From contig VBLC01000053.1 of the NCBI GenBank assembly GCA_005879315.1, positions 1-57,854 on the forward strand: 57,854 nucleotides of DNA, written 5' to 3'. The DNA is from Deltaproteobacteria bacterium. GTDB lineage: Bacteria; Myxococcota; Myxococcia; Myxococcales; 40CM-4-68-19. The translations under genes and the position numbers were made by a program. Shown piece after piece: positions 28,492-38,120 of this stretch. Numbering within the stretch: position 1 is the stretch's first letter; every line of letters starts with the position of its first letter. The notes under the pieces are model-generated. The model saw only the letters and a list, made by a program, of their open reading frames with translations, was not told the DNA's origin and ran no database searches.

Positions 28492-28980
28492 TTGTTCGTT
28501 CTCGGCCACGTCGGCATCGGCACGCGCATGTTGGGCCCGCTCCGCGCGCGGCTGCCTGCGCGCTGGTTGATCTTCGGCTGCCTCTTGCCCGACCTGATCG
28601 ACAAGCCCCTCTTCTATCTGGTGCGCGCGAGCTGGATCACCGGGACACGCACCATCGGGCATACTGGCCTCTTCCTTCTCGCGCTGCTCCTTGCGGCAGC
28701 CATCGCGCGCTCGCCCGCGACGTGGGCCGTCGTCGCCGGCGTGGCCACGCATTTCGTCCTCGACATCGCCGGCGAAGTGGTGACGGGCGCCGAGCCCGAT
28801 TCCTCCATCTGGCTGGCCCTTTTCTATCCCGCCCTGGGCTGGCGCTTTCCGCTGGCCCACTTCGGCACGCTGCTCGAGCACCTGCGCCTTTCCGCGCAGA
28901 ACGCCTATATCCTCGCCGGGGAGATCATCGGCGGCGCCATCCTGCTGCGCGCCTGGCAGAAGCGCCGTCAGTCCTCGTAG
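28492..28980 (+). CDS. YdjM-like membrane metal-dependent hydrolase
   Basis: A 162-residue integral membrane protein resembling the YdjM/LexA-binding putative hydrolase family. Four or five hydrophobic segments carry conserved histidine/aspartate clusters (LGHVGIGTRM, LPDLIDKPLFY, TIGHTGLF, GVATHFVLDIAGE) that could bind a metal. The start is a TTG; no ATG gives the conserved N-terminus. It lies 9 bases after the previous gene and runs into the convergent era gene, overlapping by 13 bases. Confidence 0.7.
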   Translation: MFVLGHVGIGTRMLGPLRARLPARWLIFGCLLPDLIDKPLFYLVRASWITGTRTIGHTGLFLLALLLAAAIARSPATWAVVAGVATHFVLDIAGEVVTGAEPDSSIWLALFYPALGWRFPLAHFGTLLEHLRLSAQNAYILAGEIIGGAILLRAWQKRRQSS

Positions 28981-29867
28981 CCGGCGCGGCGCAGGCCCTT
29001 GTCGCTCTGGGTCCAGCCCGGCTCGACACGCACGTGCAGCTGGAGAAAGACCTTGGCGCCGAGCAGCCGCTCCATTTCGTGCCGCGCCTTGCTGCCGATC
29101 TCCTTGAGGCGTGCCCCGCCTTTGCCGATGACGATGGCCTTCTGGCTGTCGCGCTCGACGATGACCTGCGCAGAAATGCGCACCAGACCGCGGGGGCCTT
29201 TGGCGCGCTCCGACTCGTCGAACTGCTCGATGACGACCGCCGCGCTGTAGGGAACTTCTTTCTCGGTGAAGCGCAGGATCTGCTCGCGCACCAGCTCGGC
29301 ACACAGCTGGCGCTCTTCGACATCGGTCCAGGTCTCCGCCGGAAAGAGCGGCGGGCTCTCCGGGAGATGCCTGGCGACGAGGTCGAGCAACCCGTCGACG
29401 TTCTCGCCGGTGAGCGCCGAGAGGGGATAGATCTCGCTCCAACCGTGGAAGTCCTTCCAGCGGTCGATCAGCGGCAGGAGCTTTTCGCGCGGCATCTGAT
29501 CGATCTTGTTGATCAAGAGCAGCGTGGGCTTCCTCGACGCCTTCACCTGATCGAGCGCCCTCCGCGTGGCCGAATCGACGGCCGGCGGCCCGGCCTCGAT
29601 GAGAAAGAGGGCCACGTCCGCATCGGCCAGCGTCTGCAGGGCCCGCTGCACCATGCGCGCGTTGAGACCGCCACGCGCGGCATGAAGGCCGGGCGTGTCG
29701 AGCAACGCCACCTGCGCGTCGGGCCGCGTGACCACGCCGAGAATGCGGCCGCGCGTGGTCTGCGGCTTGTGCGAGACGATGGCCACCTTCTGCCCCACCA
29801 GCCGGTTGAGCAGCGTGCTCTTTCCGACGTTGGGCCGGCCGACGATGGCGGCGAAGCCCGCTCTCAA
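28968..29867 (-). CDS. era: GTPase Era
   Basis: Essential GTPase that assists 16S rRNA maturation and 30S assembly. The G domain has [20 protein letters not shown] and NKID; the C-terminal KH domain has [13 protein letters not shown]. 299 residues, the normal size. The TTG start overlaps the stop of the cyclophilin gene (TTGA). rnc lies upstream on the same strand, the common rnc-era association, but two genes separate them here. Confidence 0.97.
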
Positions 29868-30394
29868 GGAATCTTTTCGCTGCGGACGATCTCGACGCGC
29901 TCCAGCTTGGTCTGCGCGTTTCCCGCCCGCGCGATCTGCGGCACGAGGTCGCCGCCCTTGACCACTTCTCCGAAGATGGTGTGCCGGTTGTTCAGGTGCG
30001 GCGTGGCCACTTCGGTGATGAAGAACTGCGAGCCGTTGGTGTTGGGGCCGGCGTTGGCCATGGCGAGCAGGCCGGGCTTGTCGAACTTGCGCCCGCTCTG
30101 GAACTCGTCCTCGAACTTGTAGCCGGGGCCGCCGGTGCCGGTGCCGAGCGGATCGCCGCCCTGGATCATGAACTGCGGGATGACGCGGTGGAACACCGTG
30201 CCGTCGTAGAGCTTCGCTTTCGACTTCTGGCCGGTGCGCGGATCGATCCAGTCCTGCGAGCCTTTGGCTAGGCCGACGAAATTGGCGATCGTCTTGGGCG
30301 CCTCCTTCTCGAAGAGCTTGACGACGATGGTGCCGCGGCTGGTCTGGAAGACGGCGTAGAGATCGCCGGGGCCCTGGGGAATGTTGGACGCCAT
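29864..30394 (-). CDS. Cyclophilin-type peptidyl-prolyl isomerase
   Basis: A 176-residue cyclophilin. Seen: [21 protein letters not shown] with the catalytic arginine, GYKFEDEF, and [10 protein letters not shown]. There is no signal peptide, so it is cytoplasmic. ATG 30394 is preferred over GTG 30400 because AGAGG is 5 bases upstream of it. Its stop overlaps the era start, so era depends on its transcription. Confidence 0.93.
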
Positions 30395-30434
30395 GATCAC
30401 CTCTGCATAGCGGACCGCGCCTCGCTCGTCTACC

Positions 30435-32516
30435 TCACTCGGGGACCGTCAATGTGCCCGCGCTGAAAGAGATGGTGTCGGAGGCGGCAGGCGAGGCGGC
30501 GATGGGCGGGACGTTGGTCGCCGAAATCTGCGTCGTCGCGTTTCCGCGCGGAGTGGTCCGCACCACCTGGCTGGGCGGCAGCGGCGTACCGTTCTTCAAG
30601 TAGGCGTACATCAGGTCGAGAGAATTGATCACGTAGCGGTGCAGTGGAACGAGCCGCGCCGCGTAGCCGGCGATGGGAAGGAATGCGTCGAAGTGCTGCG
30701 CGTTGGCCACCTCGTAGAACCGGACCTTGCTGCCCGCCCCCTCGGCAAACTGGTCGGCCGCATAGTAGGCGCGCGAAGCATGGTTGATGGGGACGAGCGT
30801 GTCGGCGCGTCCCTGGACGAGGATCGCCGGCTTGCCGTGCAGGTTGCCGCTGCGCTGCACTTCGGCGATGCCGGCCTTCAAGGCGGTGGCTTTCGCGTCG
30901 GTGCCAGTGAAGAGGTTGCGCAGGCAGACGGCGCCGTCGGCGTCGTAGTCCTGGGTTCCCGAGGTCGCCGAGGTGCCCAGATCGAAGCGAATGGCGCCGC
31001 CGGAGGAGTTGTTCTGGATCACGCTGACGGGTCCGGTAGGCGGCACGCCGTTGCCAGTGCCGAACAGGTTGAGCAGCGCGGTGGTCTGCGCGGTCGTAGC
31101 CGCCGCCGGCGCGCCGGTACCGCTCGCTGTGCCGAGGCTGTAGCCGCAGACGCTGTCCTTGACGCTGAAGCGGCCGTACGCGTTCGCGTACGTGAGCGTC
31201 ACCGCGGGAACCGCGAAGCCGGTCGTGTAATGCGTCGAGTGCAATACATCGCTGTCCGTCTCCCAGCCTGCGGCGTGCAACTTGCCGAGTGCCTCATCGG
31301 CGAGCGCGCTGGTGCCGCTGGCCGTGAGGAGCCCTTGCGCCTTGAGCGAATTGCAGCGTGCCGTGGCGGTGGCGGTGACGAGCGTGGTGTTAATCATGTT
31401 CACCGAGGTCGAAAGCGCCGCGCACGGCTGGTAGAGATTGGCGATGGTGAAATACTCGAAGAGCGGCTTGCCGAAGGCAGCCACGGCATTGGCGCCACGC
31501 TTGATGGTGACGCCCGTCAGCGCCGAAGGCGACATCTGCACCTGCGGCTCGCCCGCCACCACTCCGGAGATGAGCCCCTTGGTGTCCTGCTCGGCCGCAG
31601 CCAGCGACGCGCCGCCTCCGTTCGAGACGCTCGCGGCGATGACGATCACCTGTCCCGGCCAGAACGTGATCTGGTGCTTGCCCGAGGAATCGAGCTTCCC
31701 GAACTGTTCGTTGAGCAGGTAGAAGGCAAAGTCGATCGCGTCGAGCGTGTTCTTGCCCCAGTCTTTCTCCGGGTTCTTCTGCGAGTGGGCGTGCTTGTAG
31801 GCGAAGCGATTCGGGGTCGCGGTGTTGAAGGCCGCGCGATCGGTCGCGCTCAAGCTGGCGACGAACTCGGCGTTCTTGCCAAGATTGGCCGACGTATCGC
31901 GAAGGCCGTTGATGTCGTCGGCGGTGTCGTTCTGCACGTCGTACGCGCCGTTGCCCGTGCCTTTGTCGGTGTACGCCACGGCGCAGCCGTGCTTGAGGCC
32001 CCACTCGCCGGCGGTGGCGATGGCGCCGTAGACGCCGCGCGAACCCGACGAGGTCGCGGTGACGATGCAAGGGTTCTTGGGATCGAAGCTCGTCGGAATC
32101 TGCACCATCATCGTGACGTTCAGGGAGCCGCTGCCGTCGTCGAAGTAGGCGAGGTACTCGTCGCCGGCGATCTTCCCTTGGCCGAGGGTGTTGTTGCCCG
32201 AAGTGTCGATGTTGGGCCCGTAGAGAACGCCGTATCCACCCAGTGTCGTGATGTCCACCAGCGCGCGGTAGTTGTTGTAGATGGCCAGCCGCCGCAGCTC
32301 GGAGGCGAGCGGCGCGGATGGATTGTTGGCGGTGGGCGCCGCGCCCTGCAGGCCGGACATGCCGAGGCCGGCGGTGAGGAGGTCGTCGGTGTTGCCGTCG
32401 TAACTGGTGTGCTTGAGCGACGAGGTGACCATCGCCGAAGGCGCTGTGTTCAGCGCTGGCTTGGAGCAGGCCAGGAGTACGCTGGCCGCAAGGACGACAC
32501 GAAGAGTCGGCATCAT
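30435..32516 (-). CDS. 3-hydroxybutyrate oligomer hydrolase, lipoprotein
   Basis: A 693-residue protein similar to D-(-)-3-hydroxybutyrate oligomer hydrolases, which cut short oligomers released from polyhydroxybutyrate. The N-terminus is a lipoprotein signal with lipobox LLAC (Cys17), so it should sit on a membrane facing the periplasm or outside. The likely nucleophile is S298 in the [11 protein letters not shown] motif; GRADTLVP and NAQHFDAF would supply the Asp and His. Its composition looks less GC-extreme than its neighbours and it interrupts the rnc-ppi-era line, so it may be an insertion. It has its own promoter within the end of rnc. Confidence 0.85.
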
Positions 32517-32547: not shown

Positions 32548-32576
32548 AGACTATCGGCGCGAGCCGGCAGCGTCAA
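32548..32576 (-). promoter_or_regulatory. Promoter of the oligomer hydrolase gene
   Basis: On the minus strand TTGACG (32576-32571) is exactly 17 bases from TAGTCT (32553-32548). Transcription would start near 32541, about 25 bases before ATG 32516. The promoter lies mostly inside the last codons of the rnc-type gene. Confidence 0.55.
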
Positions 32577-33765
32577 CGCGGGCGCGCGCGAGCAGATCCT
32601 CGACCAGCTTCGACTTGGCGCCTGAATAGCGCAGGAGCGTGGCGCCGGCCGCCAGCGCGCCCCGCTTGCCCTCGAGGTAGCGGCGCGCCTCTTGAGGGTG
32701 CGAGCGCAGGTAGTCGCGCAGGAGCAGCGCGTTGTGCCAGAGCTCGCCGCCCTGCACGACGACGTGCGCGTTGAAGGAGAGGGGCCCGCGCTTGCGGAAG
32801 TACAGGCGGCCAGGCACGCCGGCTTCGCCGCAGGCCTCGTAGTCGACGAGGCGGAGCGTAGGATCGAGCGCGGGCACGCCGACCAGGAGATCGATGATCG
32901 GCTTCGCCGCCAGTCCCGGCACCGCGGTGCTGCCGATGTGCTCCACCGCCGCGGCGGGCACTGCAGCCCGCAGCCGCTCGGCTTCTTCGACGGCCAGATC
33001 TGCCCAGCGTGGATCGTAGTCTTGGAGGCTGACAGGCTCCTCCAGGAGCGCCTGCTCCAGCGCCGCCGGCGCGGCCAGCGCGGCGCGGGCTGCGGCCTGC
33101 TCCGCCTCCTTCTTCGACCGTCCGCTGCCGCTCGCCAGCCGCGCGCCGTCGAGCAGCACCTCGACCTCGTAGGAGCGCGCGTGATCGGGACCGCTCACCG
33201 TCAGCACCTGGTACTGCGGCGAGCGCCGCCGGCTCTGCAAGAGCTGCTGCAGCTCGGTCTTCGGATCGTGGCCCAGCGCCTCGGCTTGCTCGAAGAGCGG
33301 CAGGAGCACGCGCTCGATCGCTTCCCGGGCGCGCTCCATGCCGCAGGAGAGGAAGACGGCGGCGATGACCGCTTCGAGCGCGTCGGCCAGCCGCCCCGCG
33401 CTCTCCCGACCGCCCGCGCGCTGCTCGCCGCGGCCGAGCAGGAGCAGCTCGCCCAGTCCGAGCTGCCTCGCGACGATGGCCAGCGACTCCTCGCGCACCA
33501 GCGACGCTCGCAGCCGCGTCAGCTCGCCTTCCGATGCGCCGGGAAATCGATCGTACATGCGCTGGGCGATGGCGAATCCGAGCACGGCATCGCCGAGGAA
33601 CTCGAGCCGCTCGCTGGAACGCAGCTGCTCGCGCGCCGGCCGCTCGTGGACGAAGCTGCCGTGCCGGAGCGCCTCGAGCGCGAGATCGGCGCGCAGCGAT
33701 CCGGCCGGCAATCCCAGCCTCTCGGTGAGCAGCGCCACGCGCTCCTGGTCGTTGAGCTCGATCAA
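32551..33765 (-). CDS. rnc: Ribonuclease III fused to a GrpB/UPF0157 nucleotidyltransferase domain
   Basis: A 404-residue protein with three parts. Residues 1-160 are an RNase III catalytic domain with signature ERLEFLGDAVLG; D59, D128 and E131 are probable metal ligands. Residues 165-232 are a double-stranded RNA-binding domain (KTELQQLLQ...SKKEAEQAAARAAL). Residues 245-400 are a GrpB/UPF0157 domain (EHIGSTAVPGLAAKPIIDLLV, then HVVVQGG and LLLRDYLRSHPQEARRYLEGK), a family placed in the polymerase-beta-type nucleotidyltransferase superfamily. The frame is continuous, so the fusion is not a merged annotation. Ordinary RNase III ends near residue 230. The TTG start lies 7 bases after TAGTCT (33778-33773). 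It probably matures rRNA precursors; the GrpB role is unknown. Confidence 0.9.
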   Translation of the reverse strand: MIELNDQERVALLTERLGLPAGSLRADLALEALRHGSFVHERPAREQLRSSERLEFLGDAVLGFAIAQRMYDRFPGASEGELTRLRASLVREESLAIVARQLGLGELLLLGRGEQRAGGRESAGRLADALEAVIAAVFLSCGMERAREAIERVLLPLFEQAEALGHDPKTELQQLLQSRRRSPQYQVLTVSGPDHARSYEVEVLLDGARLASGSGRSKKEAEQAAARAALAAPAALEQALLEEPVSLQDYDPRWADLAVEEAERLRAAVPAAAVEHIGSTAVPGLAAKPIIDLLVGVPALDPTLRLVDYEACGEAGVPGRLYFRKRGPLSFNAHVVVQGGELWHNALLLRDYLRSHPQEARRYLEGKRGALAAGATLLRYSGAKSKLVEDLLARARVDAAGSRR

Positions 33766-33775
33766 AGCGGAAAGA

Positions 33776-34699
33776 CTACAGCCGGGCCGCCTCGTCCGCC
33801 ACGCTGTAGGGATCGGTCTCGCGCCGGGCGATGCGCAGCGCGAGGTCGTCGAGCTGCGCCCCCTGCCGCGCCAGGCGGTCGACGGCGACCTTGAGGAGCC
33901 GCGCGCGCAGCACTTCGACCAGCTCGGTCCGGGCGCGATCGCGCTCTCGCTGCAACAGGCCGGGCCCGCTGCGCAGCTTTTGATAATGAGAATCGATTTC
34001 AGCCCAGAGCTCGTCGGTGCCCTCGCCGCGGGAGGCGACGCACTTGACGATGGCGACTTCCTTGTCGGTCAGCTCCAGCATCGTGCGCAGGTCGCGGATG
34101 GTCCGGTCGGCGCCCTCGCGGTCGGCCTTGTTCACGGCGAAGAGATCGGCCACTTCCAGGATGCCGGCCTTGATCGCCTGGATGTCGTCCCCCAGGCCGG
34201 GCACGACGACCACGACGGTCGTGTGGGCCAGCCGGCAGATCTCCACCTCGTCCTGGCCGACGCCGACCGTCTCGATGAGGATGATGTCCTTTCCCATCGC
34301 GTCGAGCACGCGCGCGCAGTCGGAGGTGGCGCGCGAGAGGCCGCCGAGCTGTCCGCGCGTCGCCATCGAGCGGATGAAGACGCCGGGATCGAGCGCGTGG
34401 TCCTGCATGCGGATGCGATCGCCGAGGATGGCCCCGCCGGTGAAGGGGCTGGTGGGGTCGACGGCCAATACGCCCACCGTCTTCCTTTTGGAGCGGAGCA
34501 GCGCGACCAGCCGATCGACCAGCGTGCTCTTCCCTGCTCCGGGATTTCCGGTGATGCCCACCAGGTGCGCGCGGCCGGTGTGCGGCCAGAGGGCGCGCAG
34601 CTCCGCTTCCGCCTGCGGCTGCGCGTCGTCGATCAGCCGCATCAGCCGCGCCACCGCACGGACGTCGCCTTTGAGGACGCGGGGGGCGAGCTCGGTCAT
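33776..34699 (-). CDS. meaB: MeaB/ArgK-type G-protein chaperone of a B12-dependent mutase
   Basis: A 307-residue GTPase of the MeaB family, which loads and protects adenosylcobalamin in acyl-CoA mutases. Seen: Walker A GNPGAGKSTLVDRL, the switch motifs VDPTSPFTGGAILGDRIRM and ETVGVGQDEVEI, and NKADREGAD. The start overlaps the acyl-CoA dehydrogenase stop (ATGA). The mutase subunits it could serve are encoded 10-15 kb away (44924-45331 and 47718-49406). Confidence 0.93.
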   Translation of the reverse strand: MTELAPRVLKGDVRAVARLMRLIDDAQPQAEAELRALWPHTGRAHLVGITGNPGAGKSTLVDRLVALLRSKRKTVGVLAVDPTSPFTGGAILGDRIRMQDHALDPGVFIRSMATRGQLGGLSRATSDCARVLDAMGKDIILIETVGVGQDEVEICRLAHTTVVVVVPGLGDDIQAIKAGILEVADLFAVNKADREGADRTIRDLRTMLELTDKEVAIVKCVASRGEGTDELWAEIDSHYQKLRSGPGLLQRERDRARTELVEVLRARLLKVAVDRLARQGAQLDDLALRIARRETDPYSVADEAARL

Positions 34700-35838
34700 G
34701 CCTGCAGCAGATCCCGCGCGATCACCAGGCGCTGGATCTCGCTGGTGCCTTCGCCGATGGTGCACAGCTTCACGTCGCGGTAGATGCGCTCGACCAAAAA
34801 CTCGCGGGTGAAGCCGTAGCCGCCGTGGATCTGCACGCCGCTCGCGGCCGCGCGGCAGGCGGCCTCGCTGGCGAAGAGCTTGGCCATGGCGGCCTCGGTC
34901 GTGTACGGCTTGCCCTCGCTGGCGAGCTGCGCGGCGCGAAAGACGAGAAGGCGAGCCGCATCCAGCTCGGTGGCCATGTCGGCCATCATGAAACGGAGCG
35001 CCTGGAATTCGGCGATGGGTTTGCCGAAAGCCTTTCGCTCTTGCGCGTAGGCGACGCTCTCCTCCAGCGCGCCGCGCCCCAGCCCGACGCTGAGCGCGCC
35101 GATGGTGATGCGGCCCTTGTCGAGGATCTTCAGCGTATCGATGAAGGCGGAGTTCACTTCGCCGATGCGGCGCCAGTCCTCGACGAAGACGTCCTCCAGC
35201 ACCAGCTCCGCCGTGTCGGAGGAGCGCATGCCGAGCTTTCCGTGCAGCGGGCGCTGGCTGAAGCCCTTCAGGCCTTTCTCCAGGAGGAAGGCGGTCACCC
35301 CCTTCTGCCGGCGCCCGGCATCGCTGGAGGCGAGCACGACGAAGACGTCGCCGACGGTGCCCTGGGTGATGAACATCTTGTTGCCGTTGAGCACCCAGCC
35401 ATCTCCCTTGCGCACGGCCGTCGAGCGCATCGCCGCCGCGTCCGATCCGCTGCCCGGCTCGGTCAGGCCCCAGGCCGCGAGCTTGCGTCCCGCCGCCAGG
35501 TCGGGGATGTAGCGCCGGCGCAGCTCTTCGCTGCCGAATCGAAGCAGGTGGGAAGTGCCCAGGCCGTTGTGCGAGGCGACGGTGAGGGCGAGCGATCCAT
35601 CCCAGCGCGCGATCTCCTCGACCACCGCTGCGACGCTGACGGTATCCAGGTCGGCCCCGCCGAGCTCCTCCGGCACCGTCATGCCGAGGATGCCCAGCTC
35701 GCCCAGCTGCTTGACCGCCTCGCGGGGAAAGCGCTCCTCGCGATCCCACTCCATGGCGCGCGGCTTCACCTCGCGGACGCAGAAGTCGCGGACCGTCTCG
35801 ACCAGCTTGCGCTGGCTCTCGTCGAGCTGGAAATCCAT
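34696..35838 (-). CDS. Acyl-CoA dehydrogenase
   Basis: A 380-residue flavoprotein of the acyl-CoA dehydrogenase superfamily, forming an alpha,beta double bond and passing electrons to ETF. Seen: FGLTEPGSGSD-like WGLTEPGSGSDAAAM and NGNKMFITQG in the middle domain, the FAD-contact SVGLGRGALEESVAYAQERKAFGKPI, and the end IGEGTSEIQRLVIARDLLQA with the usual catalytic-base region. Substrate length is not decidable; it could be isovaleryl- or another short/branched-chain enzyme. It is translationally coupled to meaB. Confidence 0.92.
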   Translation of the reverse strand: MDFQLDESQRKLVETVRDFCVREVKPRAMEWDREERFPREAVKQLGELGILGMTVPEELGGADLDTVSVAAVVEEIARWDGSLALTVASHNGLGTSHLLRFGSEELRRRYIPDLAAGRKLAAWGLTEPGSGSDAAAMRSTAVRKGDGWVLNGNKMFITQGTVGDVFVVLASSDAGRRQKGVTAFLLEKGLKGFSQRPLHGKLGMRSSDTAELVLEDVFVEDWRRIGEVNSAFIDTLKILDKGRITIGALSVGLGRGALEESVAYAQERKAFGKPIAEFQALRFMMADMATELDAARLLVFRAAQLASEGKPYTTEAAMAKLFASEAACRAAASGVQIHGGYGFTREFLVERIYRDVKLCTIGEGTSEIQRLVIARDLLQA

Positions 35839-35892: not shown

Positions 35893-37071
35893 CTATCCCT
35901 CAGCCGACTTTGCCGGCAGCGCATGGAGGATCGAACAGGCCGCGCAGGCGAGCAGGGTTGCGTAGCGGAGCGACACCATCGGCCAGAAGACAGCGTGGGC
36001 GAACCAGCTCACTTGCGGCCAGACACGGTCGCTCTGCAGATGGAGAAAGCTGAAGCTGACCACGAAATCGGCGAGCGCGACGGCGGAGGCGGCGGTGGCC
36101 AGCCAGGCCGGCAGGCTGGCGAGAGCGATCAGAGCGATCACCCAGAGCCAGTATTGTGGCGAATAGACTTTGTTCGCGGCAAAGAAGATGCAGACGAGGC
36201 CGCAGGCGGCGCGCAGGGCATCGAGACGGCGCGTGCGCAGCTCGAGGACGGCGAGCAGCGCCGCCGCCCCGAGCGTCACCGCGGCGGAGATCTGGTTGGC
36301 GATCGGCACGAAGGCGCGCGGGTCGGCGCCTGCGAGCAGATAGAGGCTCGGCTCGATCTCGCGGATGCGGTTGTAGCGGAAGAACCAGAGCCAGTTGTCG
36401 GTGGCGAAGAGCGCGAAGGGAAGATTCAAGACCAGCGAGACGAGCAGGAAGATGCCCGACAGCTCCAGCGCATGCCGCACCGACTTGCGCAGCGAGACGA
36501 GCAGCAGCACGCCGAGAACCAGCAGCGGAAAGAATTTGGTCCACACCGCGAGGCCGAGCACCGCAACCGCCGCGCGCTCGCGGCCTTTGGCCCAGAGCCA
36601 GATGCCGAGCGCGAGGGGCAGGATGCCGAACAGGTCCCAGTTCAAGCCGCCGTAGACGAGCAGCGCCGGCGAGGCCGCCCAGGTCCATGGGGACGCGGCC
36701 GGCAGCGACGCCAAGAACCAGAGCGCTCCCAAGCCACAGAGCGCGAGCGCGAGATAGGTGAGCGCGAAATATCCCGACCGTTCGGGAGCGAGGACGCTCG
36801 GCCACCACATGCCCAGCCCCATCAGCACCGGGTATTCGAGCTTGTCCTGCAGATAAGGAAGGGGATGCCGCTGCGCGCCGCGGTCCTCGTGCAGCGCGAG
36901 GATGTCCGAATAGGCGAGCGCGCCGAAGGCCCAGGTGCGGTAGCCCCAGGGCGAGGGATGGCTCGTCCCCGGCGCGGTCCGGAGATAGCCGGCGAGAAAG
37001 AGCGCGCAAGCGACCGCGGCGGGCGCAGCGAAGCGGCGCAGCGTCGCGCGTCGATCGAGTGGCGGACCCAT
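35893..37071 (-). CDS. Polytopic membrane protein, GT87-like glycosyltransferase
   Basis: A 392-residue protein with about ten hydrophobic spans. The early loop (YRTWAFGALAYSDILALHED...LEYPVLMG) resembles the acidic first loop and YP motif of GT-C/GT87 polyprenol-phosphate mannosyltransferases; later loops hold WDLFGILPLALGIWLWAKGRE and SPQYWLWVIAL. Donor and acceptor are unknown. ATG 37071 is preferred; upstream in-frame sequence to 37167 is arginine-rich and unlike a membrane leader. The gene stands alone between a dehydrogenase and a divergent hydrolase. Confidence 0.68.
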   Translation of the reverse strand: MGPPLDRRATLRRFAAPAAVACALFLAGYLRTAPGTSHPSPWGYRTWAFGALAYSDILALHEDRGAQRHPLPYLQDKLEYPVLMGLGMWWPSVLAPERSGYFALTYLALALCGLGALWFLASLPAASPWTWAASPALLVYGGLNWDLFGILPLALGIWLWAKGRERAAVAVLGLAVWTKFFPLLVLGVLLLVSLRKSVRHALELSGIFLLVSLVLNLPFALFATDNWLWFFRYNRIREIEPSLYLLAGADPRAFVPIANQISAAVTLGAAALLAVLELRTRRLDALRAACGLVCIFFAANKVYSPQYWLWVIALIALASLPAWLATAASAVALADFVVSFSFLHLQSDRVWPQVSWFAHAVFWPMVSLRYATLLACAACSILHALPAKSAEG

Positions 37072-37121
37072 GCGCGGGCAGCGTGGCACGGAACAACCGC
37101 GCGCGGTAGTTTGCGCCTTCC

Positions 37122-38120
37122 ATGAAGACACTGATCCTCTGCGCCCTCGCCGCCGGCTGCGCGGCAAGCAAACCGACCTACTTCGACAACACCGGCCGCG
37201 ACGATCTGCTCAGCGGCGGCGCGCGTCGAATCGAGATCGGAACGCCGAGCGGCAAGTTCAAGGTCTGGACCAAGCGAGTGGGAAACAATCCCTCGCTGAA
37301 ATTGCTCACCCTGCACGGCGGACCCGCCGCCACGCACGAATACTTCGAGGCTTTCGACACGCACCTGCCGGCCGCAGGCGTCGAGTACTACTTCTATGAC
37401 CAGCTCGGTTCGGCGTACAGCGACCAGCCCGACGATCCCAGGCTCTGGACCATCGAGCGCTTCGCCGACGAAGTCGAGCAGGTGCGCACGGCGCTCGGAC
37501 TGACCAAGGACAACTTCGTCCTGCTCGGGCATTCCTGGGGAGGAATTCTCGCCCTCGAGTACGCGCTTCGCCATCCGCAGGCGCTCAAGGGGCTGGTGAT
37601 CTCCAACATGATGGCGAGCATTCCCGCTTACAACGAGTACGCGCGCAAGGTGCTCATGCCGCAGATGGATCCACTTGTTCTCGCCGAGGTGCTGGCCATC
37701 GAGGCGCGCAAGGACTACGACAACCCGCGCTATGAAGAGCTGCTCTTCCCCGCCTTCTACACGCAGCACATCCTCCGCATGCCGCTCGAACAGTGGCCCG
37801 ATCCGGTGCTGCGCTCCTTTGCGCATCTGAACAAGAAGATCTACGTGCCGATGCAGGGACCGAGCGAGATGGGCGCGAGCGGCGTGCTCGAGCATTGGGA
37901 TCGCACGGCGGACCTCAAGAGCATCGCGGTCCCGACGCTGGTGATCGGCGCGCAGTTCGACACCATGGACCCCAAGCACATGGAGTGGATGGCGAAGCAG
38001 ATCCCGCGCGGGCGCTTTCTCTACTGCCCGAAGGGGAGCCACCTGGCGATGTACGACGACCAGGAGACGTACTTCGCCGGGCTCGTCGCGTTTTTGCGCG
38101 ACGTCTCTAAACAGGAGTGA
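37122..38120 (+). CDS. Proline iminopeptidase-family alpha/beta hydrolase, lipoprotein
   Basis: A 332-residue S33-type alpha/beta hydrolase. Seen: oxyanion-hole HGGPAATHEYF, the family YDQLGSAYSDQPDD, nucleophile elbow GHSWGG, an acid in GAQFDTMDP and the histidine in KGSHLAM. A short signal with AAGC at residues 10-13 looks like a lipobox, so the enzyme would be membrane-tethered outside the cytoplasm. A -10-like TAGTTT ends 9 bases before the ATG. It overlaps the convergent carboxylase gene by 14 bases. Confidence 0.85.
   Translation: MKTLILCALAAGCAASKPTYFDNTGRDDLLSGGARRIEIGTPSGKFKVWTKRVGNNPSLKLLTLHGGPAATHEYFEAFDTHLPAAGVEYYFYDQLGSAYSDQPDDPRLWTIERFADEVEQVRTALGLTKDNFVLLGHSWGGILALEYALRHPQALKGLVISNMMASIPAYNEYARKVLMPQMDPLVLAEVLAIEARKDYDNPRYEELLFPAFYTQHILRMPLEQWPDPVLRSFAHLNKKIYVPMQGPSEMGASGVLEHWDRTADLKSIAVPTLVIGAQFDTMDPKHMEWMAKQIPRGRFLYCPKGSHLAMYDDQETYFAGLVAFLRDVSKQE

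Follow-up and report, generated by a model that had tools for sequence, protein, structure and literature searches.

The window, which is the whole stretch of 57,854 nucleotides that was analysed, carries on its minus strand a gene in which an RNase III is joined to a GrpB domain (rnc-grpB). This gene, its parts and its conserved neighbours are located as follows.

32551 to 33765, minus strand: fused gene rnc-grpB, 404 amino acids, TTG start at 33765, stop at 32551–32553
33301 to 33687, minus strand: RNase III catalytic domain, residues 27–155, with E52, E55, D59, D128 and E131 intact
33073 to 33264, minus strand: double-stranded RNA-binding domain (dsRBD), residues 168–231
33037 to 33072, minus strand: linker, residues 232–243, with a predicted helix at 233–241
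32587 to 33036, minus strand: GrpB (UPF0157, PF04229), a nucleotidyltransferase-fold (NTase-fold) domain, residues 244–393
32890 to 32934, minus strand: GrpB signature GSTAVPGLAAKPIID, residues 278–292
33776 to 34783, minus strand: meaB, the upstream neighbour, with its stop 10 bases ahead of the start of rnc-grpB; the order is the same in the fused relatives
29864 to 30400, minus strand: cyclophilin-type peptidyl-prolyl isomerase (ppi), a conserved neighbour downstream of rnc
28968 to 29867, minus strand: era GTPase (30S assembly), a conserved downstream neighbour

Translation of the minus strand from 33765 to 32551 gives 404 amino acids with zero internal stops. A preliminary description of this DNA had reported the unbroken frame with the right coordinates; the strand, which it left unstated, is minus. 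Its assignment of RNase III, double-stranded RNA-binding and GrpB domains to one chain is borne out by Pfam matches that each lie far over the curated cut-off: Ribonucleas_3_3 at residues 27–155 (4e-30), Ribonuclease_3 at 52–142 (7e-25), dsrm at 168–231 (4.8e-18) and GrpB at 244–393 (2.7e-36), the last with 125.6 bits against a curated cut-off of 25.5 for PF04229. The RNaseIII equivalog TIGR02191 of NCBIfam is matched as well (217 bits, cut-off 166). The RNase III motifs read ERLEFLGD (52–59) and DALE (128–131). By correspondence to E. coli RNase III we take E52, E55, D59, D128 and E131 to be the catalytic set; all five carboxylates are present, as described earlier, and the RNase III signature with the catalytic E/E/D/D/E is found in all six fused copies introduced below. 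As in class 1 rnc, a single RNase III domain is followed by one dsRBD. With GrpB at 244–393 after the dsRBD the protein departs from the usual short tail of rnc, which makes it a variant and not a non-member.

The fusion was searched for in 40 whole genomes, comprising its own and those of relatives. The same single-frame gene occurs in three genomes of the same genus (G001, G005, G006) and in one of the sibling genus (G007), with matches spanning residues 1 to ~390–402 at 60–76% identity and full frames of 405, 404, 411 and 401 residues, respectively. Because this frame recurs in the same operon in four independent genomes, an assembly chimera, or a join or frameshift at residues 232–245, is ruled out. 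In a further genome, G003, contig C228 breaks off within the rnc frame once the dsRBD has been passed, and contig C452 opens at its extreme end with a GrpB frame that precedes ppi and era; this is consistent with a gene split by the assembly within the linker. The order RNase III-dsRBD-GrpB recurs throughout the clade, and within it GrpB is not found solely as an independent gene. The linker motif P-x-x-L-x-x-ALL-x-E is kept in all five unbroken fusions. The copy of G007 (L036, 9603–10805) is the most divergent: a further stretch of GrpB is lost near the GVPGRLY segment, three residues are missing from the RNase III domain, and its GrpB looks as though it were undergoing further trimming.

The fused gene occupies the place of rnc in the operon with era, as in the sister genera. 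The shared gene order is carboxyltransferase, an unnamed membrane-like protein, acyl-CoA dehydrogenase, meaB, rnc(-grpB), ppi and era. A conserved membrane-protein-like frame of the operon at 35893–37167 (minus strand), which has no Pfam match at 1e-5, is ~62–72% identical in the fused relatives. A gene for a 3HB-oligomer hydrolase (30435–32516, minus strand; PF10605, 3e-293) sits between rnc-grpB and ppi-era in the window; ppi nearly adjoins rnc-grpB in G005, G006 and G003 (gap <250 bases), and ~1.5 kb separate the two in G001. No RNA elements of Rfam were found within the window. An origin in phage defence or on a mobile element was considered and rejected, as the fusion matches no model of PADLOC-DB (anti-phage defence) and the operon is a housekeeping one.

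The role of rnc lies in the processing of rRNA and double-stranded RNA. In the genome of the window, which is 97.6% complete, the fusion is the only RNase III, and it must therefore carry the housekeeping role. A second housekeeping RNase III that would free the fusion for a special task is ruled out, there being no second copy. The fusion therefore alters a housekeeping enzyme instead of adding a specialised one.

Outside the clade, the sister genera (g3 and g4; G008–G011) possess ordinary rnc genes of 243–289 residues and have no GrpB gene anywhere in these genomes, which confines the fusion to a single clade. In a set of 195 genomes of the phylum, inferred from gene content to be Myxococcota, the GrpB domain was found in 47, and a match spanning both parts occurred only in genera g1 and g2, which make up this clade. 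In G002, whose genome is 61% complete, a stand-alone GrpB is present that is distinct from the fused ones and falls outside their group. The six fused copies form one group in the RNase III tree (support 100/98) as well as in the GrpB tree (100/99), and one fusion event therefore suffices: GrpB was gained once, in the ancestor of the two genera, and has been stable since. In the GrpB tree the fused domains do not nest with the stand-alone GrpBs of the phylum; descent from these is thus unsupported, and the domain may come from outside the phylum. The nearest row in that tree is a Nocardiopsis protein, but it stands on long branches. The fusion is absent from 72,556 plasmid and 50,697 phage records, none of which covers 80% of the query. 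The flanks of 11 GrpB genes on viral contigs, ~1.5 kb long or shorter where the contig ends, contain no RNase III, and neither do the smaller flanks around plasmid GrpB genes. A protein query against a collection of 84,980 species genomes, a search that detects close relatives only, recovered no fusion, its sole match being a distant RNase III.

The GrpB domain is under purifying selection. Pairwise NG86 dN/dS values are ~0.2–0.5 for GrpB and 0.12–0.35 for the RNase III part; they are rough because dS is near saturation, and they lie below 1 in every pair. Across five full copies from two genera at 60–76% identity, GrpB stays in frame with zero stops or frameshifts. Together with the conserved linker, these findings argue against a useless passenger, that is a chance fusion tolerated since RNase III accepts C-terminal extensions, and now decaying slowly without function. 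Such a passenger would account for the faster evolution of GrpB, which changes 2–3 times as fast as the RNase III part (branch lengths of 1.08 and 0.33 in G007), for the loss of family-invariant residues and for the further shortening in G007. It does not fit the conserved Y, K, R and D positions, and we consider it improbable.

Structure prediction with AlphaFold2 gave a mean pLDDT of 94.8 for the full-length fusion (one chain, pTM 0.75) and of 95.3 for GrpB alone. The GrpB model resembles GrpB of Enterococcus faecalis (2nrk; TM 0.75, E 5.7e-12), and the GrpB half of CoaE (PDB 6n39) is its second-best structure match. Beyond GrpB, the Foldseek neighbours are the uridylyltransferases and poly(U) polymerases URT1, TUT4 and Cid1, with weak matches (E 5e-4 to 1e-2). 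The membership of GrpB in the nucleotidyltransferase superfamily, as initially proposed, agrees with these terminal uridylyltransferases being the nearest non-GrpB structures. Both models lack a helix between strand 2 (290–297) and the strand at 321–325. A helix after strand 2 belongs to the conserved NTase core (PMC11646218); in the models of the fused GrpB none is predicted across residues 297–321.

The residues of the six fused GrpBs were compared with 40 reference GrpBs from six phyla, an archaeon included: 29 loci of the own phylum, ten plasmid-borne genes (five phyla, including Halobacterium) and 2nrk. A Legionella GrpB in this set is itself fused to an acetyltransferase. The copy in the window holds all family-invariant residues (W, H, GST, AKP, D, the strand-5 H, R, Y, K, Y and K). 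The GrpB signature, reported as intact, is so in this copy (GSTAVPGLAAKPIID, 278–292); in the relatives this holds in part, since A287-K288-P289 (AKP), present in all 40 references, is broken in three of the six fused copies by K288R (two copies), P289A (one) and A287G (two). His334, which was assigned to strand 5 by reading the model and not by superposition, occurs in 36 of the 40 references and only in the window's own among the fused copies, where four others have Gln and one has Arg. The stretch from D292 to Y309 comprises 22 residues in 38 of the 40 references, 16 in the fused copies and 14 in G007, so that all six fused copies lack six residues behind strand 2, at the place of the NTase core helix. 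The pocket signature of GrpB is partially lost within the fused group.

The preliminary description had proposed that RNA cleavage is coupled to nucleotide transfer, with GrpB as an active nucleotidyltransferase that adds nucleotides to the RNA ends cut by the RNase III domain. The fold, the RNA uridylyltransferases and poly(U) polymerases among the Foldseek neighbours, the invariant D292 and GS motif, and K288 and H334 in the window copy favour this idea, and some nucleotidyltransferases have fewer than three acids, with one in Tam41 and one missing in RelA-type enzymes (PMC11646218). Compared with active nucleotidyltransferases, however, only D292 of the three carboxylates is present. Instead of the pattern G[GS]-x(9-13)-D-h-[DE] the window copy reads GS-x12-D292-L-L294, in which the second acid is absent, and at the position of the third acid on strand 5 stands His, in the relatives Gln or Arg, and never an acidic residue. 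The second acid is also missing from 30 of the 40 reference GrpBs, so its absence alone is not decisive. The loss of His, AKP and the helix within the fused group weighs more. The motif residues drift inside one genus, and just three C-terminal helices follow in the GrpB model, whereas the uridylyltransferases have a larger second domain. In the literature searched, no catalytic activity was found for any GrpB. The fusion provides no evidence that cleavage and nucleotide transfer are coupled; the proposal is unsupported, and we regard an active transferase at this site as highly improbable. Ten of the 40 references (e.g. the stand-alone L057, L062 and L068) carry D-x-D on strand 2, and these would be the better candidates in a test of GrpB as an active nucleotidyltransferase.

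With moderate confidence we favour a housekeeping RNase III with a once-acquired, most likely non-catalytic GrpB accessory module for folding, dimerisation and/or RNA grip. As the intact residues and the single copy suggest, the RNase III dimer would cut double-stranded RNA by the normal two-metal route. It would carry two non-catalytic NTase-fold GrpB modules, each held on the conserved helical linker after the dsRBD, which would aid protein folding or dimerisation and/or add RNA grip. There are precedents for both contributions. Mycobacterial CoaE folds properly only with its GrpB domain, for which tests of methyltransferase, phosphopantetheinyl transferase and regulatory roles were negative (PMC2765170). 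In NF90 the DZF pseudo-NTase beside dsRBDs dimerises and raises the affinity for dsRNA >10-fold, while DZF alone shows no appreciable RNA binding (PMC11952958). The net charge of the fused GrpBs is near neutral (+1 to −5), which does not point to a surface that binds RNA strongly. The sister genera do without GrpB, which is therefore no intrinsic requirement for the folding of RNase III in this lineage. Against an accessory role stand further the ten residues from H276 to Y380 that are still invariant in the fused copies (H276, G278-S279-T280, D292, R350, D351, Y363, K367 and Y380), which argue that the pocket is still in use, and the retention of K288 and H334 in the window's own copy.

These invariant residues could instead belong to a catalytically dead ligand sensor, in which a nucleotide or metabolite bound in the GST/D292/R350-D351/Y/K pocket adjusts the RNase III activity. 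The set kept in all fused copies is the one common to nearly all GrpBs, others having been lost, and the NTase fold with its weak similarity to UTP-bound terminal uridylyltransferases makes nucleotide binding plausible. The likely pocket residues K288 and His334 differ between close relatives, however, and we know of no ligand of GrpB. For CoaE, regulation in cis via the substrates or products of the kinase was tested and ruled out (PMC2765170). A sensor is conceivable but doubtful. Also rather unlikely is the bolder proposal that GrpB either binds a nucleotide or metabolite that gates the sole RNase III or modifies RNA ends by a non-canonical one-carboxylate chemistry; if true, nucleotide control or end modification would be built into a bacterial RNase III, and GrpB would have its first function.

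The fusion is of interest for the GrpB family, which is widespread in bacteria and archaea and whose function is unsettled. A stable fusion to a well-understood nuclease offers a clean test case. Should a ligand or reaction come to light, GrpB would gain an assigned function; otherwise it would be one more NTase fold turned into a scaffold next to a dsRNA-binding domain.

As of 2009, the described GrpB architectures were stand-alone GrpB, CoaE-GrpB, acetyltransferase-GrpB in both orders and GrpB-deaminase (PMC2765170). The RNase III-GrpB chain is absent among them, both families being already known, and a literature search for RNase III joined to GrpB found no paper. With bacterial RNase III (rnc, TIGR02191) the fusion shares the catalytic domain and dsRBD, all catalytic carboxylates and the operon position seen in the sister genera. 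It differs by ~170 extra residues with the GrpB domain, whereas the nearest rnc genes of the family end 10–60 residues past the dsRBD without GrpB. Similar to the fusion, mycobacterial dephospho-CoA kinase (CoaE-GrpB, PRK03333/NF002879, PDB 6n39) bears GrpB at the C-terminus of an unrelated housekeeping enzyme. There, however, the partner is a kinase; the fusion lacks a CoaE domain and stays below the NF002879 cut-off (score 63.6, cut-off 215). Stand-alone GrpB/UPF0157 (2nrk) has the same fold (TM 0.75, 33% identity), the GST...D signature and the R-D, Y, K and Y positions, but the fused GrpB is six residues shorter after strand 2, and not every member of the fused group retains His334 and AKP. 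NF90/NF45 DZF likewise combines a catalytically dead NTase fold with dsRBDs in one chain (PMC11952958). It is eukaryotic, belongs to another NTase family and has no RNase III domain; the parallel is an analogy of working, not kinship.
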